64,000 nt of DNA from Mogibacterium timidum ATCC 33093. GTDB lineage: Bacteria > Bacillota > Clostridia > Peptostreptococcales > Anaerovoracaceae. Below, one piece after another: positions 7,266 through 51,396 of the stretch. The stretch is taken from contig NZ_JALU01000002.1 of the NCBI RefSeq assembly GCF_000525775.1, positions 1 to 64,000 of the forward strand, written 5' to 3'. Within the stretch, counting starts at the first letter, position 1. Each line of letters begins with the position of its first letter. Under the pieces are notes generated by a model. That model was not told the DNA's origin. It made no database searches and saw nothing but the letters and a program-made list of their open reading frames with translations. Both the position numbers and the translations under genes were made by a program.

Positions 7266-7268
7266 ATT

Positions 7269-7536: not shown

Positions 7537-7561
7537 AATAATATACATTTGTTAAGTTTTC

Positions 7562-9920: not shown

Positions 9921-9964
9921 TGGGAAGATTTGTCAAGGACATAAACAAAATTTTTTTGATAAAT

Positions 9965-10129
9965 TTATATCTTCTCTGTTTCTCTCTTGATTAGCTTTAG
10001 TATTTTATCCTTGTATGTTTCCCCTGTACCTTGCTTGAAATGTAGGTTTACGGTGTATTTTGTTTTTCCAATATCCATTATTAACTGTTTATGTTGTGGT
10101 TCTTTTATTACTCTTTTTTCTTCTTCCAT
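9965..10129 (-). CDS. tnpW: TnpW family transposon-encoded small protein
   Basis: 54 residues, starting at the ATG ending at 10129 after a GGAGGA box. The core IGKTKYTVNLHFKQG and the following TYKDKILKLIKRE are typical of the TnpW family first named in Tn4451. Its biochemical role is unknown. It is the last gene before the left end of the nested element, which helps define that end. The hairpin at 10161-10187 precedes it. Confidence 0.8.
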   Translation of the reverse strand: MEEEKRVIKEPQHKQLIMDIGKTKYTVNLHFKQGTGETYKDKILKLIKRETEKI

Positions 10130-10160
10130 GTGTCCTCCTTTCCGTTTTTAAGCAAAGAAA

Positions 10161-10187
10161 AAACAGCAAACCTTTTTGATTTACTGC
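10161..10187 (-). terminator. Hairpin with T6 run upstream of tnpW
   Basis: A 7-bp stem with one mismatch (CAGCAAA / TTTACTG) is followed on the minus strand by TTTTTTCTTTGC. It lies between the SAP-protein stop and the tnpW ribosome binding site. The trailing TTTCTTTGC motif recurs after the hairpins at 13405 and 18752. Confidence 0.6.
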
Positions 10188-10236
10188 TTTCGTGTTAGCT
10201 TTTATTGAATTGTTAGTTTAGCAAGCTAAAAATATC

Positions 10237-10851: not shown

Positions 10852-10866
10852 CAATATTTTATCTCC

Positions 10867-11286
10867 TCAAAACCAATTTACTTTTTCATCTCTAAATAAT
10901 GGTGTTTCACTCTCTTTGTAAGGATTGTAGTTGTTACAATTACAACCAAACTCTTTCAACGCTTTTATCTTATTATCGGCTGTCCAAACAATCAAAGAGA
11001 TACCGTCAAATTCTTCAACTTTCCCCTCATTCATTTTATTTTTGAAGTGCCATTCTACAATAGTTTGATTATCCTTATGAAAAAATTGCTTTATATCCCA
11101 CGCAAGAACTTTTCCTCTTGTATTCCACTCATTAAACCAGTGCTTTACTGTTTGCCGATTTTCATACTTAGGACACCAACTCTCAATATAAATCACATCA
11201 TCCAAAAAAATATCATCTATTCCTAAGTCTTGTTGTGTAAGCCACATATCAAACCATAAACGAATGATTTTCTCTCTTTCATCCAT
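10867..11286 (-). CDS. SnoaL/NTF2-like domain protein, element cargo
   Basis: 139 residues from the ATG at 11286, which has a GGAGG box ten bases upstream. The pattern (EREKIIRLWFDMWL; YIESWCPKYENRQTVKHWFNEW; VLAWDIKQFFHKDNQTIVEWHFKNKMN; EFDGISLIVWTADNKIKALKEFG) is the curved beta-sheet pocket of the NTF2-like superfamily. These are small-molecule enzymes or binding proteins. No specific substrate can be read. It ends in a Cys/Asn-rich tail (CNCNNYNPY). It lies between the relaxase and the SAP gene. Confidence 0.65.
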   Translation of the reverse strand: MDEREKIIRLWFDMWLTQQDLGIDDIFLDDVIYIESWCPKYENRQTVKHWFNEWNTRGKVLAWDIKQFFHKDNQTIVEWHFKNKMNEGKVEEFDGISLIVWTADNKIKALKEFGCNCNNYNPYKESETPLFRDEKVNWF

Positions 11287-11347
11287 GAATTTAAGCACCT
11301 CCAAAATCAAATACTTGTCTAATATCATACCATTTTTTCGCTTGATT

Positions 11348-12808
11348 TTATAGGTCTAACTCGTTCCGTTTTACCTGTGTTAGTTGCTTTGAATGTTCCT
11401 GTAACTGTTCAATACAAGTCTTAACTTTTTCAGCCTGTTCTACTTCCTCTCGTATCTCTAATATTTGATTGTATAGGCTATTTTTCTCTTTCTTCATATT
11501 GGCAACTTCCGATTTCCATTTGGATATATTTAAGGTCTTGCTTTCTCCTAAATATTCTTTCAGATATTTCTTGGCACTTTCAAACAAAATAATCTCTGCG
11601 GTATGCTCATTGTAGAAAGTATCTTGTTTGTTTTTCTTTAGCTTGGTATAAGCTGTATAGGTATCTTTATGCTTCAAATATTTTTCGGCGTGGTCGATAA
11701 GTTGTACTTTATTGTCAATCCGCTTTTCGGTATCTTTAATAGCTCTTGTGGTCTTGTAGTTCTTATCTCTTAAAGTAACTATGTTTTCTTTCAGTTCAGA
11801 TACGGAAATGATATTTTTCTCTTTTAAGAATTGATAGCTTCCGATGTATTGTTCTAAATCTGTATTATGGTTATCTGCATTTTTACGGATAAGATTTTCA
11901 AAAACGGATAGCAAATTTTCTTTGAATGGGAGGGTAGATTTGAGATTATCAGTTTCTGCCTTTTCTTCTTTTCCTATTCCTCTTATCCAATTTAGTAAGG
12001 CTTTTATTCTTCTTGCAATCTCTTTTAATATCTTATTCTGATGTTTGATTTCTCGGTTGATATTTCCCCTGTCGGTAGTTATTCCTTTCTTTTCCATTTG
12101 GGTGGCTGATACGCCTAAATGAATGGTCGGTATTTGTTCTATGCCCTGTCTTTCATAGGAACGGTGATCCACTTTTTCCTGTATGCTATTTTCTTCAAGA
12201 TATTTATTTGTAATATCTGTCCATGCTTTTCGCCATTGCTCTGCTTTGTCTTGTTCGTTCCAGTCCACTGTATTGATTTTTCTTGTTTTGAAGTTGCCAT
12301 TTTTAAGTTTTACTTTCTCTCCGTTTTCATCAAGTATATATTCCTTTTTTGATTTTGCTCCCCATGTTGTATCTTCGTTTAGCGGTCGCATAGTTAATAG
12401 AATATGTGCATGTGGGTTTCCGTCATTTTTATCATGTAGGGCAATGTCGGCACACATACCAACTTTCACAAAATTTTCTTTTACATACTCTCTTACAAGC
12501 TCAATCTGTTTTTCCCTGTCTAATTCTTTGGGTAAGGCAACTTCAATTTCTCTTGCAAGCTGTGAGTTTTTACTCTTTTCGATTTTCTCTACGCTATTCC
12601 ATAATGTTCCTCTGCCTGAAAATTCCTGTGGTGCATTTTGAGGCAATAGGATTTCTGTATGGGCTATTCCGCCTTTTCTTGTAAAGTCGTGGACTATGCC
12701 GTCATATTCGTTTTTTATCTTTTCGCCACTTCGATAAGCGGAAGCTGCTACTGCACTTTTGCCTTTACCTCTTGAGATAATCTTTATGCAAAGATGATAT
12801 ATCGCCAT
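11348..12808 (-). CDS. MobA/MobL family relaxase (TnpZ-like) of the nested element
   Basis: 486 residues starting MAIYHL, the same first six residues as RSF1010 MobA as I recall it. The likely catalytic Tyr is at residue 25 (AASAYRSGEK). The histidine motif is ALHDKNDGNPHAHILLTMRP at about 126-145. The block VDHRSYERQG and the following TIHLG are shared with the other relaxase. The C-terminal 200 residues form a coiled coil. A GGAGG box precedes the ATG. Its probable substrate is the oriT at 13004-13044, just upstream. It would need a coupling protein and mating channel supplied by an ICE. Confidence 0.93.
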   Translation of the reverse strand: MAIYHLCIKIISRGKGKSAVAASAYRSGEKIKNEYDGIVHDFTRKGGIAHTEILLPQNAPQEFSGRGTLWNSVEKIEKSKNSQLAREIEVALPKELDREKQIELVREYVKENFVKVGMCADIALHDKNDGNPHAHILLTMRPLNEDTTWGAKSKKEYILDENGEKVKLKNGNFKTRKINTVDWNEQDKAEQWRKAWTDITNKYLEENSIQEKVDHRSYERQGIEQIPTIHLGVSATQMEKKGITTDRGNINREIKHQNKILKEIARRIKALLNWIRGIGKEEKAETDNLKSTLPFKENLLSVFENLIRKNADNHNTDLEQYIGSYQFLKEKNIISVSELKENIVTLRDKNYKTTRAIKDTEKRIDNKVQLIDHAEKYLKHKDTYTAYTKLKKNKQDTFYNEHTAEIILFESAKKYLKEYLGESKTLNISKWKSEVANMKKEKNSLYNQILEIREEVEQAEKVKTCIEQLQEHSKQLTQVKRNELDL

Positions 12809-12869
12809 AAGAAAAAACCTCCTCTCTTTTTGATGTGGGCAAGGTGGCGATGATAAAGACTTACTAAAA

Positions 12870-12894
12870 AAATCGGATTGTTTTTATCCGATTT
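12870..12894 (-). terminator. Hairpin with T7 run upstream of relaxase
   Basis: A 9-bp perfect stem (AAATCGGAT / ATCCGATTT), with a T7 run following on the minus strand. It lies 60 bases before the relaxase start, between oriT and the gene, the same position as the hairpin at 3024-3068 in the second element. Confidence 0.65.
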
Positions 12895-13003
12895 CTTTTG
12901 GTAAGTACACAAGGGGTAGGAAATTTATTTCCGTAGGGGAGTGTAGCTCCCCTGTATCAGCTTTAGCTGATATGCTCTCTGCAAGAGCCTTCGGAGAACG
13001 CAC

Positions 13004-13044
13004 ACACCCTTTAGGGTGTATAAGTGCGCCCTTGTAAACAAGGG
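13004..13044 (+). other. Origin of transfer (oriT) of the nested element, RSF1010-like nic
   Basis: Seen: a perfect hairpin ACACCCT-TT-AGGGTGT (13004-13019), then TAAGTGCG-CCCTT with predicted cleavage between 13028 and 13029, then a perfect hairpin CCCTTGT-AA-ACAAGGG (13029-13044). Known: the RSF1010/R1162 nic region is TAAGTGCG-CCCT beside an inverted repeat. The match is exact over those 12 bases. The relaxase gene downstream has an RSF1010 MobA-like N-terminus, which supports the assignment. Confidence 0.75.
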
Positions 13045-13045
13045 A

Positions 13046-13366
13046 CTATTCCTCTGTTTCCATTCTTTCCTCTCGATTTTCTGTATTTTGATTTTTACTT
13101 TCTTCTCTGCTGTCTATGATTTTCTTGATTTTTTGATTGACTATTTCTTTGAGATTTGGATATGTGATTAGCTGATAAAATTCATCTTTGGTGAAGTCCT
13201 TGCTTTCAGTAAAGATACTTTCAAAGACTGCTCCTTTTTCATAAAGCCGTCTATCTCTCTTTTTTCGTTCCTTCTGTTTCTGCTGACTGATAAGTTTTTT
13301 CCTTTTGTTTTGTAACTGCTTGATTTCTTCTTCTGTCATTAAAATTTTTTCGTCTATGTTTTTCAT
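13046..13366 (-). CDS. DUF3847 family coiled-coil protein of the nested element
   Basis: 106 residues. Residues 1-35 form a coiled coil. The basic family signature KQKERKKRDRRLYEKGAVFE follows, and the C-terminal 40 residues are charged and low-complexity. It is homologous to the protein at 3424..3687. Its stop lies two bases from the oriT hairpin. A role as accessory mobilization or oriT-binding protein is a guess from position. Confidence 0.75.
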   Translation of the reverse strand: MKNIDEKILMTEEEIKQLQNKRKKLISQQKQKERKKRDRRLYEKGAVFESIFTESKDFTKDEFYQLITYPNLKEIVNQKIKKIIDSREESKNQNTENREERMETEE

Positions 13367-13404
13367 CTTCTGTTTTCCTTTCTTTATGTTTTGAGCAAAG
13401 AAAA

Positions 13405-13431
13405 AACAGTAAACCGATTTGATTTACTGTT
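13405..13431 (-). terminator. Hairpin with T6 run upstream of DUF3847 gene
   Basis: A 9-bp perfect stem (AACAGTAAA / TTTACTGTT) followed on the minus strand by the T-run and CTTTGC. It lies between the hydrolase gene stop (13498) and the DUF3847 start (13366). Confidence 0.7.
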
Positions 13432-13497
13432 TCGTAAGCTGCTATACTATTGTTTCTATTTAATTATTTCATTTCGACAAACTGGAATTTGTCTGTC

Positions 13498-14250
13498 TCA
13501 AAACAATTCGTTTATCATTGTCACAAATAAATCCGGTTTCAATAAAACAAGACCTGCATGCCCCAGTTTAGGCAAAACCTTGAATTCTGTTTGCGGAAAA
13601 TGCTGATTCATGTAGGCGATATCAAGTTTTCGCTCCTTTTCTTCGCCATCGGCATACCAGTAATGCATTTGCGTATCGACCTTCGGAATGGGCTGTGGAA
13701 TCTTATAGTTGTTGCATGAGTCAAAAGTTCTCCATAACGTTTTTCTACTGGAGCACTTCAAAACATCTGCAACATATTGAAGATCTTCCTTCGAATATTC
13801 ATCGGTAGCAAAAGCCTTCTCAAGCAAGCGCACTCCACCTGTCCTGCCCAGCATCATCATGAGATAGTCTCTCAAGGCGATAAAGCGTGTGACAAGCCAT
13901 GGTAGCTGATATGGTGTAATGCCTCCGTCCATAATGCAGTGTCTGATTGGAATAAGTTGTCCAAGCGTTACCATTAAAGCAACGGAGCCGCCCATCGAGC
14001 ACCCATATACTGCATACAATTCGGCAATCTCTTCAGCCTGAAGCCACTCATTCAATTCGGCAGCGATCTTCTCAATGCTTGTAAAGTCACTTTCATCCTC
14101 AGAATCATATCCGGGAAGAGCCGGAATAATCAGATGATATTTGTTTTTGAGAAGCGGAATTAAATGTTCAAAATAATCCCATCTTACAACAGAAGGATGT
14201 ATCAGCAGAATTGCTTGTTCATTACCTTTTCCAAATTCATGTATATTCAT
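13498..14250 (-). CDS. Alpha/beta hydrolase, cargo gene
   Basis: 250 residues from the ATG at 14250. The fold is visible as ILLIHPSVV (oxyanion loop), HLIIPALPGYD, the nucleophile elbow YGCSMGGSVA (Ser near residue 93), and a late LGHAGL with the probable catalytic His. The substrate is unknown; similar proteins are annotated as esterases or lipases. It is the only gene of the nested element that is not a mobility or nucleic-acid gene, and its base composition is less AT-rich than its neighbours, suggesting a separate origin. It sits between the recombinase and the DUF3847 gene. Confidence 0.8.
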   Translation of the reverse strand: MNIHEFGKGNEQAILLIHPSVVRWDYFEHLIPLLKNKYHLIIPALPGYDSEDESDFTSIEKIAAELNEWLQAEEIAELYAVYGCSMGGSVALMVTLGQLIPIRHCIMDGGITPYQLPWLVTRFIALRDYLMMMLGRTGGVRLLEKAFATDEYSKEDLQYVADVLKCSSRKTLWRTFDSCNNYKIPQPIPKVDTQMHYWYADGEEKERKLDIAYMNQHFPQTEFKVLPKLGHAGLVLLKPDLFVTMINELF

Positions 14251-14317
14251 TAGTCTAATCCATCCTGTGTACAAATTCTAATTTACTTCACTCAATACTC
14301 ATAATATTATACCACTT

Positions 14318-16009
14318 TTAAGCCATTTTTTCTATATCTACTTTCTGTGGCACTTGACAGTTACTCTGTGGCACTTGACAGTTACCTATAAAGTTAAAGT
14401 ACACATCAACTTGTTGTTTTCTATATTTGCCTTGTCTTCCTCCTGTCGCTTCGTAGACTACAACTTTTTCTATATACTCATTTATCATTGGTACTGTAAG
14501 TTTTTCAATATCTGTATATTTTTCTATCATCTTTAAGAATTTATCGGTATCAACTTTTCTCTGATGATAGCTTTCTATTTCTTGTTCAAAATACTGTATT
14601 TGCTTTTCTAAGTCTTGTTGCTCCATATCATAGGTATTAAATAATCTGTCAAAATGTTTTACAGGAATTTTACCAAGTGCGTGGTCTTCATACAGCTTTG
14701 TAATGAGTGTTGTTAGCTCTGCATTTCTTGATGACAGTTTTTCTAACTTTTCTTTATCCTCTTGATACTTTTCTTCTCTTTTTTCGTCGGATAACTTGTT
14801 CATCACTTTTAGAAACTCTTGCTTTTCTTCTTTTGCAAAGTCTGTGATTTCTTTGATTGATTTTAGGAGAATTTCATTTACTGTTTTTACTTTGATGTAG
14901 TGCATACTGCAAGAGCCTTTTCTGTGTCTGTAATGTTGACATACAAAACAATAATCGCAATCGTACTTCTTTTCTTTATGTTCTGCCGGCTCTCTATAGC
15001 TTAGCTTTCCTCCACAGTCGGAACAGATTAAAAGCCCTGTGAATGGGTGTGAGGTTGTACCATACTTTGGACTTCTTCTCACTGTTTTTCTTAACCTTTG
15101 GGCGTTATTCCATGTTTCTTCGTCAATGATGGCTTCGTGGGTATTTTTGAAGATAATGAGTTCATTTTCTTTTGCCTTTCTTCTTTTTTTGGTTTTATAG
15201 TCTAAACTAATTGTCTTTCCTAATACAGTATGCCCCATATATTCTCTTTTTTCTAAGATATAACCTACTGTGGTCGGTGTCCAAAAATATGGGTCTTCTA
15301 TTCCTCTTTTCTTTGAGCTATGGTTATTTTCGGGATAATGGGTTTCTGCATAGGCTGATGGGATAAGGACTTTGTCTTTGGTTAGTATATCTGCTATCTG
15401 TGTTACTCCATATCCCTCTATTACAAGCCTGTAAATGCGTTTTACGACCTTTGCACTCTCTTTATCGACAAGTAGCTCCTGTTTGTTCTTTGGGTTTCTG
15501 TAATAGCCGTATGGTACGCTTGGAGATACTCTTTTCCCCTCTTCCATTCTTGCCCTGAAGATAGATTGTATTTTTCTTGATGTATCTCTTGCATACCATT
15601 CGTTCATGATATTTAGAAATGGGGTAAAGTCGCTTTCTGCTTGTTTTTCACTGTCTATTCCGTTATTGATGGCGATAAACCTTACTCCCTTTTCTTTGAA
15701 AAGTATTTCGGTGTAAAAACCTACTTTGAGGTAGTCTCTGCCAAACCTACTCATATCTTTTACTATCACAGTAGATACTTTGTTTTCTTCTACTGCTTTT
15801 ATCATTTTTTGAAATCCCTCTCTATCAAAGGTTGTTCCGCTTACTCCATCATCGGTATAGTGATAGATATTTACAAAGCCGTTTCTTTTGGCATAGCTTT
15901 CAAGTAGTTGCTTTTGATTGATGATAGAGTTACTTTCTCCTTGAAGCTCATCATCTCGACTTAAACGCTCATAAAGGGCTGTTTGTCCTGTTCTTTTCGT
16001 ATTTGACAT
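14318..16009 (-). CDS. tnpX: Large serine recombinase (TnpX type) of the nested element
   Basis: 563 residues with a GGAGG box before the ATG. The catalytic Ser is probably residue 17 in LYERLSRDDELQGE. VKDMSRFGRDYLKVG is the second active-site motif. A recombinase domain (VPYGYYRNPKNK), a cysteine-rich zinc ribbon (CSDCGGKLSY to CSMHYIKVK) and a coiled-coil C-terminus (DUF4368-like) follow. It should excise the element as a circle and insert it at GA sites. The start codon lies about 54 bases inside the right junction. The C-terminus carries a recent in-frame duplication (see 14344-14385). Confidence 0.93.
   Translation of the reverse strand: MSNTKRTGQTALYERLSRDDELQGESNSIINQKQLLESYAKRNGFVNIYHYTDDGVSGTTFDREGFQKMIKAVEENKVSTVIVKDMSRFGRDYLKVGFYTEILFKEKGVRFIAINNGIDSEKQAESDFTPFLNIMNEWYARDTSRKIQSIFRARMEEGKRVSPSVPYGYYRNPKNKQELLVDKESAKVVKRIYRLVIEGYGVTQIADILTKDKVLIPSAYAETHYPENNHSSKKRGIEDPYFWTPTTVGYILEKREYMGHTVLGKTISLDYKTKKRRKAKENELIIFKNTHEAIIDEETWNNAQRLRKTVRRSPKYGTTSHPFTGLLICSDCGGKLSYREPAEHKEKKYDCDYCFVCQHYRHRKGSCSMHYIKVKTVNEILLKSIKEITDFAKEEKQEFLKVMNKLSDEKREEKYQEDKEKLEKLSSRNAELTTLITKLYEDHALGKIPVKHFDRLFNTYDMEQQDLEKQIQYFEQEIESYHQRKVDTDKFLKMIEKYTDIEKLTVPMINEYIEKVVVYEATGGRQGKYRKQQVDVYFNFIGNCQVPQSNCQVPQKVDIEKMA
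14344..14385 (-). repeat. Perfect 21-bp tandem duplication in the recombinase C-terminus
   Basis: Two exact adjacent copies of a 21-base unit (14344-14364, 14365-14385) encode two copies of NCQVPQ near the end of the recombinase. The frame is kept and the last residues follow normally. It is probably replication slippage; whether it affects activity is unknown. Confidence 0.85.
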
Positions 16010-16050
16010 GAGAATTACCTCCTTTCCAAGTTTTATTATTTTCTCTGTCC

Positions 16051-16620
16051 CTAAAATGTTAATCCTTTAGGATCGGTTACACAATATGACGAGTGCATCT
16101 GCATAAGATTCGGTTTTACATAAAATCTCGTTTTTCCACTTCCTGATCCACCGATTACAAGCACATTTTTGTTACGAGCATATTTAGGATTAGCCGGTCT
16201 GCCATTCATTGTCAGTCTTTCGGTTTGTGTAAGCAAAATATTATTTTGAAACTTTTCATCCATATATGGCTCTATATCTTTTTTATTTCCCCATCTTGCT
16301 GATCCATACTCTTTTCCCTGCCTAAACTTTTTAGCGTTTTTCCCTTTTGTATAGACAACGAATTTGATTAAAGCAGCCATTCCTATACCTATTAAAATAT
16401 CCGCCGGATGAATACTCGGAAGAAAGCTCATTGTGTTAAGCTCCAATATCCCCTGAAATATTTTATCTATCACATCTCCTCCAACATAGCTTCTTACATG
16501 ATGGGAAAAGATGTTTCCTAAATAGAAAAATGCAAGATAGGGAATGTTTTGTTTTGCAAACTTTGCCTTATCTTGAACCTTAAATAAGCCTTTGATGTCC
16601 TTTAATATCTTATCTATCAT
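16051..16620 (-). pseudogene. 5' fragment of virD4/TraG coupling protein
   Basis: 189 codons. Residues 1-95 carry two hydrophobic membrane segments. Then come EYGSARWGNKKDIEPYM, the Walker A motif GGSGSGKTRF near 155-164, and YCVTDPKG, where homology ends and LTF-stop follows from the inserted element. In intact relatives this protein links relaxase-DNA to the type IV secretion channel and is about 600 residues long. The middle part is at 9487..9920. The ATG overlaps the PcfB-like stop by four bases. In this state the product lacks most of the ATPase domain. Confidence 0.88.
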
Positions 16621-17102
16621 AGGCTCTGCTCCTTCTGTTTATTCTTAACTTTATCCTTAGAAACAGAGTTCTTTGCCATTTCCTTGAACTTTTCAATATT
16701 CTTATGAATGGACTCCTTTCTTTCCGTTTTCTTTTCTGATTCGGAAAGAGCGTGCTTAAATGCTTTGTCCATAACCTTCATATCTTTAGCTTGAAAGAAT
16801 ACTGAATATTTCCCGCTTTCCTTGTCTTTCATCACAGAAAACTTAACACCATATCTATTCAGCTCTTTTTTCAATTCCTTAAGCTCTGCTTCCTCTACCG
16901 GAATTTCTTCAAGCTGTCCTTTTTTAACCATATCTTTGAGTTTTACTTCATTTCCATTGGCATTAACCAGCTTTTCAAGTCCACCAAGTTTTTCTGCCTC
17001 TTTCATCAGCTTCTTTAGTAAATCCAATAGAAGTTTCCCTGTTACCTTAGCAGCTCTTACTTCCATATTCAGCGTTTTTCTTGCTATCTCTTCATTGATC
17101 AA
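16617..17102 (-). CDS. PcfB family protein (DUF3801), conjugation accessory
   Basis: 161 residues from a TTG at 17102, nine bases after GGAGGTGA and overlapping the stop of the DnaC-like gene. The N-terminal region (INEEIARKTLNMEVRAAKVTGKLLLDLLKKL) and the central ELKKELNRYGVKFSVMKDK block are typical of DUF3801/PcfB proteins. In Gram-positive conjugation systems these sit beside the coupling protein and assist relaxosome recruitment. It ends in a Lys-rich tail. Gene order RepA-DnaC-PcfB-VirD4 is standard in Tn1549-like ICEs. Confidence 0.82.
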   Translation of the reverse strand: MINEEIARKTLNMEVRAAKVTGKLLLDLLKKLMKEAEKLGGLEKLVNANGNEVKLKDMVKKGQLEEIPVEEAELKELKKELNRYGVKFSVMKDKESGKYSVFFQAKDMKVMDKAFKHALSESEKKTERKESIHKNIEKFKEMAKNSVSKDKVKNKQKEQSL

Positions 17103-17950
17103 GTTCTCTCACCTCCATTCAGTAGCCTCTCTTTATTACGAGCCAGCTTATCCTTTTGAATAACCTTTCTAAAATCTTCTCCTACAACCATAACAGGAAT
17201 ACACATCTCTACGATTCGTGAATAAATCCTCTGATACTCCACACTTTCTGTGCAATTTAGAATTGTGTCATAGGAAAGGTTTGTGGTAAAAATAGTCGGT
17301 TTTTGTTTTAAGTACCTGTTATTAACAATATTATATACCTGTTCTTTTGCATAACTTGTATCCCTTTCAATTCCTAAATCATCCAAGATAAGAACGGAAG
17401 TATTTACAAGAGATTCAATATATGCGTTTTTATCAAGATCAAATCCGCCGTTTTGTAGTTCGTTGATAATCTGTGCAAAATTTCTTATCTTAACCCCTAC
17501 CTGATATTGTTCAATTAGAGCATTGGCGATAGAACAAGCAAGGTATGTCTTTCCACTACCTACCGAACCATAAAACAAAAGTCCTATATTTTCCTTTTTC
17601 ATTTCCTCATAATCTTTTACAAAATTCTTGGCAATAATAAGGCTTTGATTTTCTTCTCCCTGATAATTTTCAAAGGTATATGACCACTGAATAACAGAGT
17701 TAAAGCAGCTACTCTTTAATCGCTCTATATCCAGCTGCTTTTGTCTTTCTTTTTCTTTTGCTTCTCTATTTCTATCGCATTTACAAGCAGTCTTAAATAT
17801 CATCTGCTTTCCGAAAAACTCTAATGCTTTCCCATCTTTTCTTTCATTGCACACTTTACAGTATGCATGTCCGTCCTTGATATATTCTTTTTCAGGATCA
17901 AAGCTATATTCCACATCTTCTATCATCACTTTTTCTAATTCCTTATTCAT
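17099..17950 (-). CDS. DnaC-like helicase loader ATPase of the ICE
   Basis: 283 residues. The N-terminus has a zinc-finger-like pattern (CKVCNER, then ACKCDRNRE). The AAA+ domain shows Walker A GSVGSGKTYLA near 131-141, Walker B VLILDDLGIE near 193-202, sensor I IFTTNLSYD and an Arg-finger region YSRIVEMC. It loads the replicative helicase at the element's origin after the initiator opens it. It overlaps the initiator gene by four bases at its start and the PcfB gene at its end, so the three are translationally coupled. Confidence 0.9.
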   Translation of the reverse strand: MNKELEKVMIEDVEYSFDPEKEYIKDGHAYCKVCNERKDGKALEFFGKQMIFKTACKCDRNREAKEKERQKQLDIERLKSSCFNSVIQWSYTFENYQGEENQSLIIAKNFVKDYEEMKKENIGLLFYGSVGSGKTYLACSIANALIEQYQVGVKIRNFAQIINELQNGGFDLDKNAYIESLVNTSVLILDDLGIERDTSYAKEQVYNIVNNRYLKQKPTIFTTNLSYDTILNCTESVEYQRIYSRIVEMCIPVMVVGEDFRKVIQKDKLARNKERLLNGGERT

Positions 17951-18717
17951 AGATGTACTCCTTTGTTATATTCCTCCCATGTAGGGATATTGGATTTTTT
18001 CTTACTTCCCTGATCTTTATAAAACCAAGAAAGGATTGTTGCTTTATGGTCTTTATATGTCTTTCCGGTGCTTTTGATATATGCAGATAATCTCTCAATG
18101 TAATTTTCAAGCTGTGAGTTCATTATGATTTGTAAATCGGATATATCTTCTGCCGTTAAAAATACATTTTGAAATGTTCCAAGCCCGTTTTCACTAAAAC
18201 TATATTCTCTCTTACTATACTTACTCTTATTATTCTTTATATAGTTAGAGTCAAGATTTTGAACTTCCTGAAGTTCATTTTCTTTACTTCTGAGGTTAAA
18301 ATCTTTTACTTCTGAAGTTAAGTTTTCTGACTTCTGAAAGTCATTTTCTTTTACCGCTAATATGCTCATAAAGTCTTTAACATATATGACATTCGGCTTA
18401 CCAAGCCCAAGCCTTACTCTTTCAATCAGTCCGATTCCTTTTTTCGTATCGAGTTCATCTAATGTTTTTATAGCTGTCGGCTTTGAGATATTTCTTCTTC
18501 TCATAATTTCTTCAACAGTAAAATAGATAAATACTCTGCCTTCCTTGTCCACCCAATTATTCTTAAAGGACATTCCTGTTCGTTTCAAAAGCATAGAATA
18601 AAGGATAATTGCTTCAGCAGACAGTCCCTTAAATTCTTCTCCGTCTACCAATATTTCAGGTACTTTTAGAAAGTTAAATCTTTCTGCTTCTCTGTTATAG
18701 AAATAGTCAAAGTCCAT
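17947..18717 (-). CDS. RepA N-terminal domain replication initiator of the ICE
   Basis: 256 residues from the ATG at 18717, after GGGAGGAGGTGA. Residues 1-110 match the RepA_N initiator family (FNFLKVPEILVDGEEF, LSAEAIILYSMLLKR, GRVFIYFTVEEIM with a winged helix SKPTAIKTLDELD). A polar linker follows. The C-terminal domain (YIERLSAYIKSTGKTYKDH) recurs in the replisome organizer at 259..1011. It initiates autonomous replication of the excised ICE. It is followed by the DnaC-like loader with overlapping codons. Confidence 0.88.
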   Translation of the reverse strand: MDFDYFYNREAERFNFLKVPEILVDGEEFKGLSAEAIILYSMLLKRTGMSFKNNWVDKEGRVFIYFTVEEIMRRRNISKPTAIKTLDELDTKKGIGLIERVRLGLGKPNVIYVKDFMSILAVKENDFQKSENLTSEVKDFNLRSKENELQEVQNLDSNYIKNNKSKYSKREYSFSENGLGTFQNVFLTAEDISDLQIIMNSQLENYIERLSAYIKSTGKTYKDHKATILSWFYKDQGSKKKSNIPTWEEYNKGVHL

Positions 18718-19092: not shown

Positions 19093-19251
19093 TTATTCCT
19101 CACTTCCCAATTCATACTTTGTATCTCCACACACCATATCAATGCAAACATTCACATCTATATAATTTTTTAGGACTTTTTTTCGTCCACCTTCGCCATC
19201 TTCATTAAAGACATAATGCTTGTAAAACTGCTTAAAATGCAGGATTTTCAC
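19093..19251 (-). CDS. Terminal small ORF of the ICE, probably 5'-truncated at the junction
   Basis: 52 residues from a GTG at 19251 that overlaps the rlmD stop (reads KILHFKQFYKHYVF... VNVCIDMVCGDTKYELGSEE). No ribosome binding site precedes it, and the open frame continues into rlmD. I do not recognise a family. The simplest reading is an ICE gene whose start is on the other side of the attachment site when the element is circular. Expression in the integrated state is doubtful. Confidence 0.45.
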   Translation of the reverse strand: MKILHFKQFYKHYVFNEDGEGGRKKVLKNYIDVNVCIDMVCGDTKYELGSEE

Positions 19252-21056
19252 GATTTCACTCTTTGTATCAACGCTATGCACTCCACATGCATCGTCGCCA
19301 CAAACATATCCACCGGTGTTGCCTCTATGAACTCGTATCCCAGCTCGCCCAGCACTTTCACATCTCTTGCCAGCGTACCCGGATCGCAGGACACGTACAC
19401 TATCTTGTCCATATCACAGCTTGCGGCTGCTCGGAGAAGTGCCTCATCGCATCCCGCGCGCGGTGGATCGAGGATGGCAATTTTTGGAGCAGTTTCGTCG
19501 ATATAGTCTACGAAAAGTTTATCTTCCTTGTCGAGAAGTCTCGGCATCATCTGTTCTGCACGGCCTGCGTAGTAGCGCGCATTTACAATACCGTTGATTA
19601 CGGCATTGCGGTTTGCGTCGATAACTGCGTTTTTTACAGATTCTATTCCGATAATCATACCAGCCTCAGATGCCATGCTGAGGCCGATAGTTCCGATGCC
19701 GCAGTAGAGGTCAAAGACTGTTTCACCGCCCTTGAGACAGGCATATTCCCTGACCTTGGCATAGAGCTTGATCATCTGCTTAGTGTTGACCTGATAAAAT
19801 GCAGGTGCGGAAATCTCGAACTTCATGCCGCCTCCAGTTATGTCGGTGACAGTGTTTGAGCCAGCCACAACCTCATAAGCAGTCGCGGTTTCACGGATGT
19901 CTTTTGCCTTGTTTACCTCGACAACTACACTCTGCAGGAAGTACGGCTCCTCATCGGTCGAGACCGCATCGATTGCATCGCTGATAGTGTAGATGACCTT
20001 TTCGGCATTTGGTAGCTGCTTGGATGTGCCTGTAAATATTAACATCATCTCGCCCGTGCCCTCGCATACCTTGATGGTAAAGCCTCTTAGAAATCCGTTG
20101 CCGTGTCTCGCATCGTACACGGAAATCAGTTTGCCTCTTAGGAGTTTGCGGATTGCATTGGCTGCCGCCATTGTTGCGCGCTTCTGGAGGAGACAGTCTG
20201 TGCAATCGACTATTTTGTTGCTACCGCGCTTGTTGAAGCCGACGAGCGGGCCGGAGTTCATCATTGCTACCGCAAATTCGGCTTTGTTGCGGTATCTGAA
20301 CATGGGTTCGTGGACGGCGCTTTCGAAGCTGGTCCCGCTCTCGGCTCCCATCGCATCGGCGGCGCCCGCGATATTTGATTCCGAGTCCTGATTTTCTGAT
20401 TTAAAGCCTTGATTTTCCAGCTCCGAGCCCTGATCTGTCGTTCCTATATCCGAACCCCGAATATTTGATTCCGAGCTCCTGCCTGTAATTTCTGTATCCG
20501 CAACTTCAACTTCGCTATTTTCGCTATTTGATTCCACATTCCGGAATTCAGAATCCGCATACGCCGATTCTGGGGTCATCTCCGAATTACGACTGCTTAA
20601 TGCCGACTTCCGGCGCTCAAGCACCGCATTTGCGCCCGCAATATTTGATGCTGAATCCGCATATGCCCCTATTACATCCCTGACTGTCGGATTCTCAAGG
20701 GCGCCTATACGCTCGAGCTTCATGATTATATTTCTGCGTTTAATTCTGAGCTGCTCTTCATAGGTAAGCTCGAGCATAGAGCAGCCGCCGCACTCCTTGT
20801 AGTATGGACACGGCGGCTGCACTCTGGCAGCGGAAGGCTCAAGAAGCTCCACTGTTTCAGCTATAGCGTAGCGCTTCTTGAGCCCGGTGATGCGGGCGCT
20901 CACCTTATCGCCCGGAACAGCGCCCATCACAAAGACAGCAAGGCCCGACAGTCTGCCCAGACCCTTGCCATCATCAGTCATATCAGTAATTTCGAGCTCT
21001 ACTATCTGCCCTTCGAAGACTGCTGCCACAGCAGTCCTATGAATATTGTCACTCAT
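19248..21056 (-). CDS. rlmD: 23S rRNA (uracil-C5)-methyltransferase, RlmD/RumA family, with a large insertion
   Basis: 602 residues from the ATG at 21056 (AGAGGT box); an upstream ATG at 21101 is also in frame. An N-terminal TRAM-like beta domain is followed by the Fe-S cysteines (CPYYKECGGC). The SAM-binding motif is FDLYCGIGTIGLSMA. The catalytic part has ILDPPRAGCDE and the nucleophile Cys in VYVSCDPGTLARD. It methylates a uridine of 23S rRNA. About 120 Ser/Asn/Glu-rich residues are inserted between the Fe-S region and the RNA-binding MFRYRNKAEF block, making it far longer than the usual 450. The ICE joins at its last codons. Confidence 0.92.
   Translation of the reverse strand: MSDNIHRTAVAAVFEGQIVELEITDMTDDGKGLGRLSGLAVFVMGAVPGDKVSARITGLKKRYAIAETVELLEPSAARVQPPCPYYKECGGCSMLELTYEEQLRIKRRNIIMKLERIGALENPTVRDVIGAYADSASNIAGANAVLERRKSALSSRNSEMTPESAYADSEFRNVESNSENSEVEVADTEITGRSSESNIRGSDIGTTDQGSELENQGFKSENQDSESNIAGAADAMGAESGTSFESAVHEPMFRYRNKAEFAVAMMNSGPLVGFNKRGSNKIVDCTDCLLQKRATMAAANAIRKLLRGKLISVYDARHGNGFLRGFTIKVCEGTGEMMLIFTGTSKQLPNAEKVIYTISDAIDAVSTDEEPYFLQSVVVEVNKAKDIRETATAYEVVAGSNTVTDITGGGMKFEISAPAFYQVNTKQMIKLYAKVREYACLKGGETVFDLYCGIGTIGLSMASEAGMIIGIESVKNAVIDANRNAVINGIVNARYYAGRAEQMMPRLLDKEDKLFVDYIDETAPKIAILDPPRAGCDEALLRAAASCDMDKIVYVSCDPGTLARDVKVLGELGYEFIEATPVDMFVATMHVECIALIQRVKS
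20310..20666 (-). repeat. Repeat-rich low-complexity insertion inside rlmD
   Basis: This segment encodes about 119 residues with repeated motifs: YADSASNIAG, SSESNIRG, DSESNIAG, AYADSEF and GSELENQ/FKSENQ. At DNA level a 30-base unit beginning GCGCCCGC-ATATTTGAT (plus strand) occurs nearly intact twice, near 20,367 and 20,630, with degenerate copies between. The reading frame is kept throughout and the flanking enzyme domains look normal. It appears to be an expansion within a surface loop. Confidence 0.75.
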
Positions 21057-21126
21057 CAGTACCTCTACGATATTGGTTATATCAATCCGTCTGCGCGTCA
21101 TACCCTTTTCATGTCCTGCGTTAATA

Positions 21127-45246: not shown

Positions 45247-46214
45247 TATTTCGCACCTCCTTTTACATAGCCCTTATACGTCCATCTGTTGATAAGTGGC
45301 GTGCAGATGTTCATCAGCAGGATGGAGAAGGAAACACCTTCCGGGTAGTTGCCCCATAGACGAATAGCCATGGTGATAACTCCGCATCCGATACCGAATA
45401 GGATCTGACCTTTAGTTAGCTTAGGCGATGTCACATAGTCTGTAGCCATGAAGAATGCACCCAGCATCACACCACCTGCACACACATGGAATATAGCCAT
45501 GTTGAAATCCCCCTTGTAGTATGCAAGAGCGATTACAAATACAGTTCCGATGAATGCACATGGAATAGCCGGTGAAATAACCTTTCTCCAGATAAGGAAC
45601 AGTCCTCCGACCAGAAGTGCCAGAGCACTTACTTCTCCGAGGGATCCGCCCGTGAAGCCGAGGAACATGTCCATGTTGGACGGAAGATCAGCCTTGCCGG
45701 TCCCACCGGCAACGAGAGCTAGAGGTGTAGGCCCTGTTACGGCATCAGTCTGTGCTGCCATCCTCGGTAACGGCCAAGATGTCATCTGCGCTGCGAACGA
45801 GATAAACAGGAAGATTCTGGCTGTGATAGCCGGGTTTACAAAATTCCTGCCGATACCTCCGTACAGCTGCTTAATAACAACGATAGCTACAAAGCATCCG
45901 ATGATTGCCATCCATACAGGGAAGCTGGATGGAACGTTAAACGCGATTAACAGACCTGTTACTGCGGCACTGAGGTCGCTAATTGTCTGTGGCTTCTTGG
46001 CTAGCAAATTGTAAATCCACTCGAATGCCACGCTGGCAACCACACATGATACGGAGAGTAGCAGAACTCTGGCCCCGAAGATGTATACGCTGGCAACTAG
46101 CGCCGGAAGCAGTGCAAGCAGAACAGTTCCCATTAATTTGGTAGTATCTTCGTCCGTAACGATATGCGGAGATGTCGATACTATCAGATTGTTATGAAAT
46201 TTCTTATTATCCAT
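45246..46214 (-). CDS. rnfD: Rnf complex membrane subunit D (covalent FMN)
   Basis: 322 residues with about nine membrane helices. VTGPTPLALVAGGTG holds the predicted FMN-Thr. YGGIGRNFVNPAITARIFLF and FFMATDYVTSPKLTKGQILFG are conserved blocks of the NqrB/RnfD family. It overlaps the end of rnfC by eight bases. Together with A, E and G it forms the ion-translocating core. Confidence 0.96.
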   Translation of the reverse strand: MDNKKFHNNLIVSTSPHIVTDEDTTKLMGTVLLALLPALVASVYIFGARVLLLSVSCVVASVAFEWIYNLLAKKPQTISDLSAAVTGLLIAFNVPSSFPVWMAIIGCFVAIVVIKQLYGGIGRNFVNPAITARIFLFISFAAQMTSWPLPRMAAQTDAVTGPTPLALVAGGTGKADLPSNMDMFLGFTGGSLGEVSALALLVGGLFLIWRKVISPAIPCAFIGTVFVIALAYYKGDFNMAIFHVCAGGVMLGAFFMATDYVTSPKLTKGQILFGIGCGVITMAIRLWGNYPEGVSFSILLMNICTPLINRWTYKGYVKGGAK

Positions 46215-47526
46215 TCTTCTTCGCTGCCTCCTTTACCAAGCCTTTCGCGAGCTTATTGGTAAAGCTCAAGGGTCTTCTCGCAGGACATACATATGAGCAG
46301 CTTCCGCACTCCATGCACTGCATAACCCTGAACTTATCAAGTGACTCTGCGTCATCTCTCTCGTAGAAATCTGCGTATAGCATAGGAACGAGCTTGAATG
46401 GACATGCGTGGTGGCAACGTCCACAGTTGATACATCCTGTCTCGGTCTTAACTGTAGCCGATTCCTTGCCGAAGCATAGAAGAGAACCTGTATTCTTAAC
46501 AGTTGGAGTCTCATCCGAATGAGTTGCACGCCCCATCATAGGTCCGCCCATTACGATTTTCTTAGGCTCCTGCTTATATCCGCCGCAGAACTCGACAACA
46601 TCAGCGATGCGAGTTCCGATTGGAACGAATACGTTCTTAGGCTCCGCAACAGCATCTCCATCTACAGTAATTCTCCTCTGCACAAGCGGCATGCCCGTTC
46701 TGAAGTACTGTCCTAGGATAGCGATTGTAGATACATTACAAAGGATTACTCCCAGCTGTGCCGGGAGCACACCGGCATTCATAACCTGACCGGTTGTCTC
46801 ATATACAAGCACACGCTCGGCACCCTTAGGATATCTCGACTGCAGCTTGCATACCTCAATGTTATTGATACCGTTCTGCTGAATCAGTCTGTTCATATTG
46901 TCGATGGCATCAGGCTTATTCTCCTCGATGCCGAGAATTCCATTCTCGAGGTTGAGATACTTCATCGTTAGAAGCATACCGTCGAGGACATCCTGTCCAT
47001 CCTCTACCATCACTCTGTTATCGCCTGTGATGAATGGCTCGCATTCAGCACCGTTAATAACTAAATACTTACACTCGTCTAGATTCTTTGGATCCATCTT
47101 GATGCTCGTAGGGAACGAAGCACCTCCTAATCCAACCATACCACTAGCTCGTACTGCCTTGACAAAATCCGCATGATTTTCAACGCGAGGAATCTGCACC
47201 TCTTCGCTGACATCCTGCTTCTTATCAGTCTCAATTACAATATGTGTCTCCATTCCGCCCATAGAAGAACGTACTGACGTAATATCGGTAACCGTTCCGG
47301 AAACGCTGGAATGAACCGGTGCGCTAACGAAAGCTTCTGTGTCACCGATCTTCTGACCGACCTTGACATAGTCACCCTTAGCAACGAGAGGCTGACAAGG
47401 AGCACCAATGCTCTGCGACATGCAGATTTCAACCACATCCGGAATCGGCATCACTTCGGTCTCACGACCTGCAGTATTCTTGTGATGCTTAACCAAAATG
47501 CTTGGTAGATGTTTACCTTGGCTCAT
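46207..47526 (-). CDS. rnfC: Rnf complex subunit C (NADH-binding)
   Basis: 439 residues from the ATG at 47526, with AAAGGAAGGG upstream; longer in-frame starts lack a box. Residues 40-110 form the lipoyl-like barrel, then the NADH/FMN domain (GLGGASFPTSIK, INGAECEPFITGDNR). Two 4Fe-4S motifs are present (CINCGRCHHACP, CMECGSCSYVCP). It reduces NAD+ with electrons arriving from ferredoxin through the membrane. First gene of the operon, with a promoter of its own just upstream. Confidence 0.96.
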   Translation of the reverse strand: MSQGKHLPSILVKHHKNTAGRETEVMPIPDVVEICMSQSIGAPCQPLVAKGDYVKVGQKIGDTEAFVSAPVHSSVSGTVTDITSVRSSMGGMETHIVIETDKKQDVSEEVQIPRVENHADFVKAVRASGMVGLGGASFPTSIKMDPKNLDECKYLVINGAECEPFITGDNRVMVEDGQDVLDGMLLTMKYLNLENGILGIEENKPDAIDNMNRLIQQNGINNIEVCKLQSRYPKGAERVLVYETTGQVMNAGVLPAQLGVILCNVSTIAILGQYFRTGMPLVQRRITVDGDAVAEPKNVFVPIGTRIADVVEFCGGYKQEPKKIVMGGPMMGRATHSDETPTVKNTGSLLCFGKESATVKTETGCINCGRCHHACPFKLVPMLYADFYERDDAESLDKFRVMQCMECGSCSYVCPARRPLSFTNKLAKGLVKEAAKKNG

Positions 47527-47583
47527 CCTTAAGAACCCTTCCTTTCTTAGATTCGTACAAATAATATCCATTGCATAAGAGAA

Positions 47584-47612
47584 ATTATACATCAAAAATA
47601 CGTATAAGTCAT
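47584..47612 (-). promoter_or_regulatory. Predicted promoter of the rnf operon
   Basis: On the minus strand, -35 ATGACT (47607-47612), a 17-base spacer and -10 TATAAT (47584-47589), 58 bases before the rnfC start. The -35 lies next to the stop codon of the decarboxylase gene. The 15-base block TTGATGTATAATTTC is identical to that in the promoter at 58924-58952. Confidence 0.6.
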
Positions 47613-47613: not shown

Positions 47614-49371
47614 TTAAACTTCCTTGAAATCTTCACATTCAGGCGCAACTTTTATTCTTCCCTCTTCATCTACTCCGAGAACCACATGTTCTGCTACTAA
47701 CTGATCTCTGACGTACAAGATAACATCTCTGCTGAGCACTTCACCCGGGCAGGCGATAGGGCTGCCCGGCGGATATGGGACCAGAGATTCATATAAGACT
47801 CTCCCCTCTGCGCTGTAAAGCGGCACGGTTTCATATCTGTCCGGAATTCCGCGCTGCTCCAGCATTGCCGAAAGCGCGGGATTCCGGGCAGGAGATGGAG
47901 AGTCCGCGGCTTTGCTGCTTGAATTCACAGCTTGCGAGGCGGAGTCCGCGGCTTTGCTACCCGCCTTCTCGATCTGCAAAGCGACTTCCGCAATTTTGCT
48001 ATCCGCCTTCGTGTATTTAGAGGTGGAATCTGCAATTTTGCCACCTGAAGCCCCCGCCGAATCGGAATCCTGCAATTCGGTGCGGCGGATTCCGCCGCTA
48101 TACTGCACCGAGATCTCACGCAGGGCGGCCAGCATATCCTCGTAGTCGCCTCTCTCGTTGCCGATTCCGGTCATCATCATTGCGTAGCCGCCGTGCGTGA
48201 GTTCAACCCAGATGTTCCGCTTCCGGAGCTCCTCCGCCAGCTGATCTCCGGATAGGCCGAGGGCTGACATTGTGAGATTTATCTTGGTATTGTCCAGTTC
48301 CGGACGCCGGATGAGATTGAGCCCTCGGATCCGGGCAGCCTCGCGGTAGAAATATTCGACGTCTGCTGCCCAGCTCTTGACCAGATTGTAGCCGTCCATT
48401 CTGAGTATCTGCTGATTGATGTCGAGGCTGCCCATCAGCAAATAACTCGGGCTGGTTGTCTGCAGCATGCGGATGAGCTCAGCTATTCGCGGAACATCCG
48501 GCCTCTCGGTGCAGATGTTGAGAATTGCGGAGCCGGTAAAGGACAGCAGAGTCTTGTGCGTGCTGTCGACAACGATGTCGGCTCCGCAATTCTCTGCCGC
48601 TCTGCAGCCCGCAGATAGTATCAATCTCTCGGGATCAGAACTCGGATTGCCGCTATTGCCACCGGCAGCAGCCCTGCCGTATTTGCTACTATCCAATCCC
48701 CTCAATCCCTGACTGCTGCCAGCGGGCTGCGGCGCACCGTCCCGCCTCAGGTAATCAAAAAAATTGAGGTGTGCACCGTGCGCCTGATCCACAATAAGGA
48801 TGCGGCCGTGCAGGTGAACAATATCAGCAATCCGTTCAATATCAGACAGCACACCGTAGTAATTCGGACTGGTCACCAGCACGGCCTTAATCATAGGATC
48901 CGCCATCAGCGCTGCTTCTATCCTGTCAGGATCCAATCCCAGCTGCAGGCCGGTCTCCTCATCAAGCTCAGGCATTATATAGGACGGATTTATACCCCCG
49001 AGCCTGAGAGCCCCATAAACTGACTTGTGCGAGTTCCTGCCCATCAGCAGAGTATCCCCCCTTGGAACAGTGGCCAGAATAGCCGCCATCAGACCTGTGC
49101 TGCTTCCATTTACGAGAAGCTCGGTGTGTTTGACCCCGTACAGACCGGCGTAGCCGTTCATAATATCCTTGATGCGCTCCCGCGGCTGCTGCAGCGCGTC
49201 CGCACCCGGGATCTCGGTTATATCATTGCCCATAACAGTCTTGACGAAGTCGCCAAAGCCATATATCCCGTACAGCGTACTCCTGCCCTTGTGCCCCGGC
49301 ATATGGAACGAAATCGGGCGTGACTCCTTGTGATATATCAGAAAATCCGTAAGACTTATTTTATTTTTCAT
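47614..49371 (-). CDS. Orn/Lys/Arg decarboxylase family protein with repeat insertions
   Basis: 585 residues from the ATG at 49371, behind a GGAGGA box. The fold-I PLP enzyme core is clear: SFHMPGHKGR at the start, TELLVNGSSTGLMAAI, LIVDQAHGAHL, and the PLP-binding Lys in VDSTHKTLLSFTGSA. Two extra segments interrupt it: about 40 Gly/Ser/Ala-rich residues between the Asp and Lys motifs, and 14-residue repeats before the C-terminal domain (47875-48042). It would make a polyamine precursor (cadaverine, putrescine or agmatine), but specificity cannot be read. Confidence 0.88.
   Translation of the reverse strand: MKNKISLTDFLIYHKESRPISFHMPGHKGRSTLYGIYGFGDFVKTVMGNDITEIPGADALQQPRERIKDIMNGYAGLYGVKHTELLVNGSSTGLMAAILATVPRGDTLLMGRNSHKSVYGALRLGGINPSYIMPELDEETGLQLGLDPDRIEAALMADPMIKAVLVTSPNYYGVLSDIERIADIVHLHGRILIVDQAHGAHLNFFDYLRRDGAPQPAGSSQGLRGLDSSKYGRAAAGGNSGNPSSDPERLILSAGCRAAENCGADIVVDSTHKTLLSFTGSAILNICTERPDVPRIAELIRMLQTTSPSYLLMGSLDINQQILRMDGYNLVKSWAADVEYFYREAARIRGLNLIRRPELDNTKINLTMSALGLSGDQLAEELRKRNIWVELTHGGYAMMMTGIGNERGDYEDMLAALREISVQYSGGIRRTELQDSDSAGASGGKIADSTSKYTKADSKIAEVALQIEKAGSKAADSASQAVNSSSKAADSPSPARNPALSAMLEQRGIPDRYETVPLYSAEGRVLYESLVPYPPGSPIACPGEVLSRDVILYVRDQLVAEHVVLGVDEEGRIKVAPECEDFKEV
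47875..48042 (-). repeat. Four 42-bp coding repeats in the decarboxylase gene
   Basis: Four consecutive 14-residue units: GKIADSTSKYTKAD, SKIAEVALQIEKAG, SKAADSASQAVNSS and SKAADSPSPARNPA. The first six positions are most conserved. The frame is kept and enzyme sequence resumes after it (LSAMLEQRGIPDRYE). Motifs such as ADSAS also appear in the rlmD insertion at 20310-20666. Confidence 0.8.
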
Positions 49372-49712
49372 ATTTTCTATTCCTCCGCCTCCCGCTCTCC
49401 GTTTCAGCAATTCAGCTGCCACGCAGCTTTGGTTGGTATACATCACGTTGAGGTGTGTTTCTGCAGCCGATACATGGACTGCACATCCCCCTCAGCACGA
49501 TGCCGTAAATGCAGTTCCTGAAATCAATGTGTATTTTTACAAATTGTGCGCATTGATACTAAAGTATGCATCGCAATTTGTTCTTGCTCTTGTAAGTAAA
49601 AAGCACAAAGAACAGATGCGACCTTATGGGTCATCCAATCCTTGTGCTTACGTCGCATTTCCAAAGGTAGGTGCGTATATGTGCATATATAACTCGTGTA
49701 CGAGCTGTGATT

Positions 49713-50068: not shown

Positions 50069-51340
50069 TTAATCGATAACAGATCTTCCCATGTATGGTC
50101 TAAGCACCTTCGGCACTACTACGCTGCCGTCTTCCTGCTGGAAGTTTTCGAGAATTGCTGCAACTGTTCTGCCGACTGCGAGGCCGGAGCCGTTGAGAGT
50201 GTGAACAAACTCAGGCTTAGCCTTTTTCTCTCTTCTGAAGCGGATATTGGCACGTCTCGCCTGATAATCCTCGAAGTTTGAGCAGCTGGAAATCTCTACG
50301 TAGCGGCTGTAGCTCGGCATCCATACCTCGATATCATACGTCATAGCTGAAGAGAATCCGAGGTCGCCTGTGCATAGCCTAACCACTCTGTAAGGGATAC
50401 CCAGTCTCTGCAGTATCTCCTCTGCATCATGCGTCAGCTTGTCCAGCTCTTCATACGAGTTGTCGGGGTTTACAAACTTGACCATCTCGACCTTGTTGAA
50501 CTGGTGCTGTCTGATCAGTCCTCTGGTATCTCTGCCTGCGGAGCCTGCCTCCTTGCGGAAGCATGGCGTGTAAGCCGTGTAGTACACAGGCATATCTTCC
50601 GGCTCGATGATTTCATTTGAATGAAGATTTGTAACAGGTACCTCGGCCGTCGGGATCAAGAATAAATCCTTGGCCGGCACGTAGAACATGTCGTCCTCAA
50701 ACTTGGGCAGCTGACCTGTTCCGGTCATAGCATCGCGGTTAGCCATAAAAGGCGGCAGTATCTCGGTGTAGCCCTGCTCCTCGGTATGGAGGTCGAGCAT
50801 AAAATTGATAACCGCTCTCTCGAGCTTAGCGCCAATGCCCTTATATACTGTAAATCTCGCGCCGGAAATCTTGGAAGCGCGCTCGAAATCAAGGATATCG
50901 AGATTCGTACCGATATCCCAATGTGCCTTTGGCTCAAAGCTGAACTCGGTCGGCTCGCCGAACTTGCGCATCTCGAGGTTCTCTGTATCGTCCACCCCCT
51001 CCGGCACATCAGGATTAGGGGTGTTAGGGACATTGAGCAGTGCATTGTGCAGTTCATCCTCCACTTTGCTAACCTCTGCGTCCAGAGTCTTGATCTTGGA
51101 ACTCAGTTCCTTCATCTCCGCAAACAGCGCCGAAGTATCCTCGCCTGCCCTTTTGAGCTTAGGCACCTCGCGAGAGGCCGTATTCTGCTTATTTTTGAGC
51201 TGCTCCACCTCTGCGAGAAGTTCTCTTCTCCTCGTATCAAGCTTTAGCACATTGTCTATGCCGAAATCACCCTTGCCGCGTCTTTCGACTGCAGCCTTAA
51301 CGCTGTCAAAATTCTCTCTGACTCTCTTGACGTCAAGCAT
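50069..51340 (-). CDS. serS: Serine--tRNA ligase
   Basis: 423 residues from the ATG at 51340, with GGAGGTTACGAA before it. The N-terminal tRNA-binding coiled coil spans about 28-105. The class II motifs are present: motif 2 [20 protein letters not shown] and motif 3 with [17 protein letters not shown]. The serine site includes [10 protein letters not shown]. It lies at the end of a probable operon with glutamine synthetase. Confidence 0.96.
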
Positions 51341-51396
51341 TTCGTAACCTCCCTCTTCCTGCATCTTCCCGGTACATTCCTGAATTACTTAAATAT

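Follow-up and report, generated by a model that had tools for sequence, protein, structure and literature searches.

We consider it probable that the repeats within an Orn/Lys/Arg decarboxylase gene of Mogibacterium timidum ATCC 33093 form a tandem array, now decayed, by which a disordered interdomain linker became longer and which most likely grew in place, as in the linkers of other enzymes. The array lies in a window of 64,000 nucleotides, the whole stretch of DNA that was analysed, and the coordinates of its features are collected in Table 1. The genome studied here is designated G000, and it is compared with three other genomes of the genus, one per species, designated G060, G099 and G100.

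Table 1. Positions of the genes and inserts discussed, numbered along the window
Feature	Coordinates	Strand	Residues and basis
Orn/Lys/Arg decarboxylase family CDS	47614..49371	(-)	PF01276 E=9.6e-43, PF03711 E=8.2e-08, closest structure 2x3l
Ala/Ser/Lys/Asp-rich linker insert	47875..48072	(-)	residues 459-524, between catalytic and C-terminal domains; pLDDT, linker lengths in relatives
Four tandem 42-base units, 14 residues each	47875..48042	(-)	residues 469-524; lag-42 identity
Second insert, Gly/Ser-rich	48604..48741	(-)	residues 236-281, between D220 and K298; missing in G060, G099, G100
rlmD insert	20313..20666	(-)	residues 146-263 of ORF 19248-21101; RlmD by TIGR00479; own 21-base period

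Results

The decarboxylase and its gene

The decarboxylase open reading frame spans positions 47614-49446 of the minus strand (610 residues), with its upstream limit at a GTG codon at 49446; judged from the sequence, translation likely starts at the ATG at 49371, which has a GGAGG-like sequence before it, rather than at the GTG. A seryl-tRNA synthetase gene (50069-51364) lies upstream in the direction of transcription, and the downstream neighbour, an ORF at 46207-47595, is read as RnfC. Positions 1-18000 of the window hold two relaxase-like ORFs (1287-2930 and 11348-12808) and two serine-recombinase-like ORFs (7562-9448 and 14318-16009), which are probably mobile or mobilisable elements.

The product matches PF01276 (OKR_DC_1) with 146.9 bits against a cut-off of 27, the best of two stretches being residues 32-231, and PF03711 (OKR_DC_1_C) at residues 530-580 with 33.1 bits against a cut-off of 24.2, in the domain order typical of the family. 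The S-x-H-K motif and the upstream Asp are present, and D220, S295, H297 and K298 are invariant in all 25 aligned sequences; we take these residues to be catalytic, with K298 presumably the PLP-site Lys. As to substrate class, none of the NCBIfam models attains its cut-off, and the best scores 51.5 bits against 968. The nearest solved relative, by sequence and by fold comparison, is Staphylococcus aureus SAR0482 (PDB 2x3l), which has the family and domain order in common with the decarboxylase but is much shorter, at 446 residues; its aligned pieces leave out both decarboxylase inserts.

A diverged 42-base array between two domains

The array sits between PF01276 and PF03711, and its four units follow one another head to tail and in frame, translating as GKIADSTSKYTKAD, SKIAEVALQIEKAG, SKAADSASQAVNSS and SKAADSPSPARNPA. 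Identity at a lag of 42 bases is 0.619, a value reached by none of 20,000 codon shuffles, whose maximum is 0.489, and the four 14-residue repeats of 42-base periodicity reported in the initial annotation are thus upheld, though the units have diverged: any two of them agree at 20-28 of their 42 bases and at 3-9 of their 14 residues. The array is absent from the output of Tandem Repeats Finder at score 40. Differences between units are distributed over codon positions 1, 2 and 3 as 36, 29 and 46 of 84, with no significant bias (p 0.14), and the units of the G099 decarboxylase similarly show none (p 0.18), both tests being made on unit pairs that are not independent; such a lack of bias is as expected without strong protein constraint.

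An AlphaFold model of the decarboxylase, built on 25 sequences, gives pLDDT values of 35-56 in the linker, falling below 50 in two segments, residues 459-482 and 496-521, whereas 35 of the 44 ten-residue blocks in the flanking domains are at 85 or above. Hydrophobic residues make up 14% of the linker as against 32% of the whole protein. The model also places a low-confidence helix at residues 480-507, so that the linker may have some structure.

A second Gly/Ser-rich insert, noted earlier between the Asp and Lys motifs of the same enzyme, is corroborated by comparison, as the D220-K298 loop has 68 residues in G000 and 28-29 in the other three genomes of the genus. Beyond the genus, one locus (L006) has a loop of 71 residues and unlike sequence, and the other 18 loops measured have 20-35 residues. 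In the model, pLDDT is below 50 at residues 238-272 of this insert. The two inserts of the gene (47878-48072 and 48604-48741) are mildly alike in DNA, 6 of 500 shuffles being as good, a value that is one of 15 pairs tested and fails correction for 15 tests; the likeness is perhaps due to chance, or perhaps goes back to copying from one part of the gene to another.

The linker in relatives

The linker is hypervariable, with 121 residues between two conserved motifs in G000, 172 in G099, 91 in G060 and 70 in G100, and 57-92 residues at the 12 loci of other genera where it is measurable. The survey took in 33 loci; a row was obtained for 25 of them and a linker for 16, and among these 16 only the linkers of G000 and G099 have a periodicity matched by none of 500 shuffles (L022, 4 of 500; the other 13, at least 49 of 500). 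A protein search of genome contigs added one distant locus, from Ruminococcus flavefaciens (25% identity), which gave no usable linker row.

The G099 linker contains at least five units of 42 bases (lag-42 identity 0.558; 0 of 5000 shuffles as high). That of G060 has no 42-base periodicity (3445 of 5000 shuffles as high), and orthologues free of the repeat are found in two of the four genomes of the genus. The G099 array is dissimilar to that of G000: the two unit profiles are no more alike in protein than permuted columns (1796 of 5000), and in DNA the corresponding counts are 1523 of 3000 in frame and 209 of 3000 in any frame. Homology of the G000, G060 and G099 linkers was considered and finds no support in DNA, shuffles being as good in 321 (G000-G060), 593 (G000-G099) and 185 (G060-G099) of 1000. 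In protein the counts are 368, 51 and 41 of 1000 for the same pairs, with 138 of 2000 for G000-G099 in another run, and we regard the apparent likeness of G099 to G000 and to G060 as borderline.

The 42-base period common to G000 and G099 could be a coincidence, the result of common descent followed by drift, or a sign that 14-residue units are preferred; coincidence alone would seldom yield the same period twice, a hint of common ancestry or of selection for a two-heptad unit. We hold it possible, though on balance unlikely, that both arrays come from one ancestral 42-base array that was homogenised and drifted separately in the two species and was lost in G060. This would be a refinement of growth in place, and both can hold. 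The identical period at an identical linker and the borderline protein similarity agree with such an origin, but there is no similarity between the two linkers in DNA, their unit profiles are unlike, and the repeat-free G060 is nearer to G099 (median identity 92.7%) than G000 is, with 85.7% and 86.5% to G060 and G099.

A distinctly less probable explanation makes the 14-residue repeat a selected structural device, with two heptads in each unit, an amphipathic helix spacing or oligomerising the domains, and retention in two species. It would account for a 42-base period that recurs with unlike units, for the low-confidence helix, and for the raised lag-21 identity of both arrays (0.388 in G000 and 0.378 in G099). 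Yet half of the genomes in the genus do without the repeat, the G099 units are Pro/Ser-rich, silent differences between units are not in excess, and the low pLDDT of the linker fits such a device poorly.

Comparison with the rlmD insert

The rlmD insert has a lag-21 identity of 0.414 (0 of 3000 shuffles as high), and its gene ranks 13th by best periodicity score in a scan of 269 ORFs described below. The initial annotation had suggested one repeat family for this insert and the decarboxylase array, citing the exact 42-base periodicity and common motifs, ADSAS in protein and others in DNA. The best local DNA alignment between the decarboxylase insert (47878-48072) and the rlmD insert scores 22 against a shuffle mean of 19.0, with 274 of 2000 shuffles as good (103 of 500 in a repeat run), and the protein alignment scores 41 against 34.5, with 273 of 2000 as good. 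Words of 7, 8 and 9 bases common to both number 9, 2 and 1, where 7.3, 2.3 and 0.6 are expected, so that the sharing of motifs does not rise above chance.

Searches of the 1.8 Mb assembly (98% complete, 30 contigs) found no further copies of either insert. A degenerate pattern of the 42-base unit, allowing up to three mismatches, matches in the decarboxylase gene only, and DNA searches with the rlmD insert and with the decarboxylase linker give no second copy, the next-best E values in G000 being 1.93 and 1.46 respectively; the linker search has one better match, in G060 (E 0.0025), which falls in the flank conserved between the orthologues. The exact degenerate pattern has no match in viral contigs, in a search that may leave out near records. 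At the RlmD insert site G060 has a different insert, rich in Gly, Gln, Glu and Thr, G099 has a short one, and G100 has next to nothing. A single family for the two inserts, with their periods of 42 and 21 bases, was thus rejected on the shuffles, the word counts and the genome searches: within these searches there are no further copies and the likeness of the two inserts is at chance level, the two outcomes that the annotation had itself named as refuting it.

That both inserts go back to a dispersed repeat family, such as an in-frame mobile or REP-like element, is accordingly very improbable and, as far as sequence comparison goes, largely refuted, since the Ser/Ala/Asp-rich composition and ADSAS motif of both and the relation of 42 to twice 21 are outweighed by a likeness no greater than that of shuffles, by the lack of further copies in the G000 genome and of matches to the exact pattern in viral contigs, and by RlmD and HypF inserts that differ again at the same sites in sister species. 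Two inserts of like composition within one genome are no evidence of a repeat family.

Repeats and inserts in other genes

In-frame periodicity was scanned in two samples of G000, one of 269 ORFs from 14 stretches and one of 272 ORFs from 16, together about 642 kb of 1806 kb. The decarboxylase ranks fourth in the 269-ORF scan with lags up to 240 and second with lags up to 126. Eight ORFs score at least 0.55, five in the first sample and three in the second: the decarboxylase, an acetyltransferase-like protein, Rho, HypF, three that read as surface-type proteins, and one CRISPR-like false ORF. At the same threshold the G060 sample (252 ORFs) yields three, RlmD and two that read as surface-type, and the G099 sample (76 ORFs) yields two, the decarboxylase and one surface-type protein. 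Among six G000 inserts compared pairwise (two in the decarboxylase and one each in RlmD, HypF, the acetyltransferase-like protein and Rho), 14 of the 15 pairs have at least 32 of 500 shuffles as good. The earlier suggestion of repeat expansion inside the genes of this organism consequently holds in a weaker form: several enzymes carry repeats, but each has its own units and periods.

Several of these genes merit description. The protein read as acetyltransferase-like (G000:C2:70219-71670, equivalent to L076:6219-7670 and outside the window) has no Pfam match; it is 483 residues long, with 60-base repeats that are nearly exact and, besides these, a second Ala-rich insert, and matching open frames in the three congeners have 319-353 residues. 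Rho (L074:4913-6964, or G000:C15:64913-66964) has a long N-terminal extension in which a 219-base Ala-rich repeat with GRPRK (AT-hook) motifs precedes the RNA-binding domain; the G060 extension differs and is Lys-rich. A chorismate synthase-chorismate mutase fusion (L125:13753-15225) has a duplicated NSDKDASTAGQA stretch in its interdomain linker, the length of which varies among G000, G060 and G099. The false ORF, at L118:16312-16797, is read as crossing a CRISPR-like array, with FNPRVPCGTR and FQSTRPMRDAT repeated.

Growth in place is seen directly in HypF. Its linker in G060 has 22 residues between two conserved motifs and contains SDTGRHEGVYGAA once, whereas the 92-residue linker of G099 carries a 54-base tandem of three SDTGRHEGVYGAA relatives (scores 52, 28 and 26), and that of G000 has 78 residues with a different 81-base tandem that includes TGEYGAA (ORF L127:3-2066; congeners at L130-L132). 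Each tandem is matched by none of 2000 shuffles, and the G060 and G099 linkers align at their right-hand end with a score of 52, where 1000 shuffles reach at most 33. Going by these alignments, the HypF arrays are most simply read as multiplied resident linker sequence rather than as arrivals.

Among 204 reciprocal best pairs between G000 and G060, internal length differences of at least 12 residues number 17 with G000 longer (13 proteins) and 8 with G060 longer (6 proteins), or 16 in 12 proteins and 5 in 5 without an EPSP synthase ORF pair that is unreliable at 49% identity. The 12 proteins longer in G000 are RlmD, Rho, the decarboxylase, TrmO, the chorismate synthase-mutase fusion, DNA polymerase III alpha, two nitrogenase-like proteins, a disulphide oxidoreductase, and three not placed by Pfam (L070:15469, L068:14424 and the surface-type L117:11356). 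HypF, whose ORF is cut by the end of its stretch, came from the repeat scan and stands outside this count. Going by the domain matches, inserts fall between or outside domains in the decarboxylase linker, RlmD, TrmO (where the C-terminal domain match is below cut-off), the chorismate synthase-mutase fusion, HypF, Rho, the polymerase and the disulphide oxidoreductase, and inside one domain in the D220-K298 loop of the decarboxylase and in the two nitrogenase-like proteins.

A control pair from another genus of the family (G095/G011, median identity 93.8%) has inserts of at least 15 residues in 1 of 63 proteins. By the same measure G060/G099 has them in 7 of 76 (Fisher p 0.07; 4 of 73, p 0.37, without the decarboxylase, RlmD and HypF), G000/G060 in 11 of 190 (p 0.30), and G000/G099 in 8 of 61 (p 0.016; 6 of 59, p 0.056, without the decarboxylase and RlmD). 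In number, inserts are thus above the control in all three pairs, but only one of the three contrasts gives p <0.05. Both pairs with G000 stand further apart than the control pair, and some of the stretches were picked because they hold known inserts, an ascertainment bias, so that we claim no excess of inserts over the control. A second control pair (G004/G093), with 5 usable shared orthologues, is uninformative. The pattern as a whole suggests a genus-wide tendency to inserts. Low-complexity inserts are known from Plasmodium, and we raise as a tentative idea that this genus is a bacterial counterpart, in which unusually active in-place tandem duplication inflates interdomain linkers (those of the decarboxylase, RlmD, HypF, TrmO, chorismate synthase-mutase, Rho and others) with species-specific arrays, perhaps through a peculiarity of repair or recombination.

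Discussion

In the explanation that we favour, replication slippage or unequal recombination would have copied part of the resident decarboxylase linker in frame, and the duplicated stretch would then have multiplied into a tandem array, making the linker longer. The units would subsequently have diverged, because the linker hardly constrains its sequence, to leave a decayed array. Like events would have occurred independently in the linkers of other enzymes of the genus, and such independent growth in place should produce inserts that are similar in composition and habit and dissimilar in sequence. From the HypF linkers we infer growth in place for the decarboxylase array as well; slippage or recombination would be its mechanism. 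Against this it counts that the direct view comes from HypF only and that the decarboxylase linkers are unlike in DNA, so that the source of their arrays is not readable from them; the recurrence of the 42-base period in G099, the mild likeness of the two decarboxylase inserts and the low-confidence helix also weigh against it. The array most likely has little effect on decarboxylase activity, and its growth would have been nearly neutral for catalysis.

If many conserved enzymes behave in this way, closely related species would carry several independent arrays at fixed sites, which would amount to a natural experiment on the birth, spread and decay of low-complexity inserts in bacteria. Literature searches on repeat or linker expansion in bacterial proteins returned general papers on repeats and low complexity and, among the papers listed, none on linker arrays in the enzymes of one bacterial genus, and a search on Mogibacterium and tandem repeats found nothing relevant.

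That disordered linkers grow by tandem duplication is already known. Low-complexity regions of prokaryotic proteins, as described in PMC6821194, resemble the G000 inserts in biased composition, linker positions and fast change, and slippage and recombination are named there as sources; the title of that paper stresses conservation, whereas here tandem arrays in conserved enzymes differ by species within one genus. In PMC7230257, protein tandem repeats are described as enriched in disordered regions and thought to arise by duplication, and the decarboxylase array similarly consists of tandem units in a disordered segment; the repeats of that census are often at sequence flanks, whereas the decarboxylase array lies internally, with a domain on either side. 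Periscope proteins (PMC8201768, PMC9704523) likewise show repeat-driven length variation of one protein, but they belong to the cell surface and at least one has folded repeat domains, whereas the protein here is an enzyme with a disordered linker.
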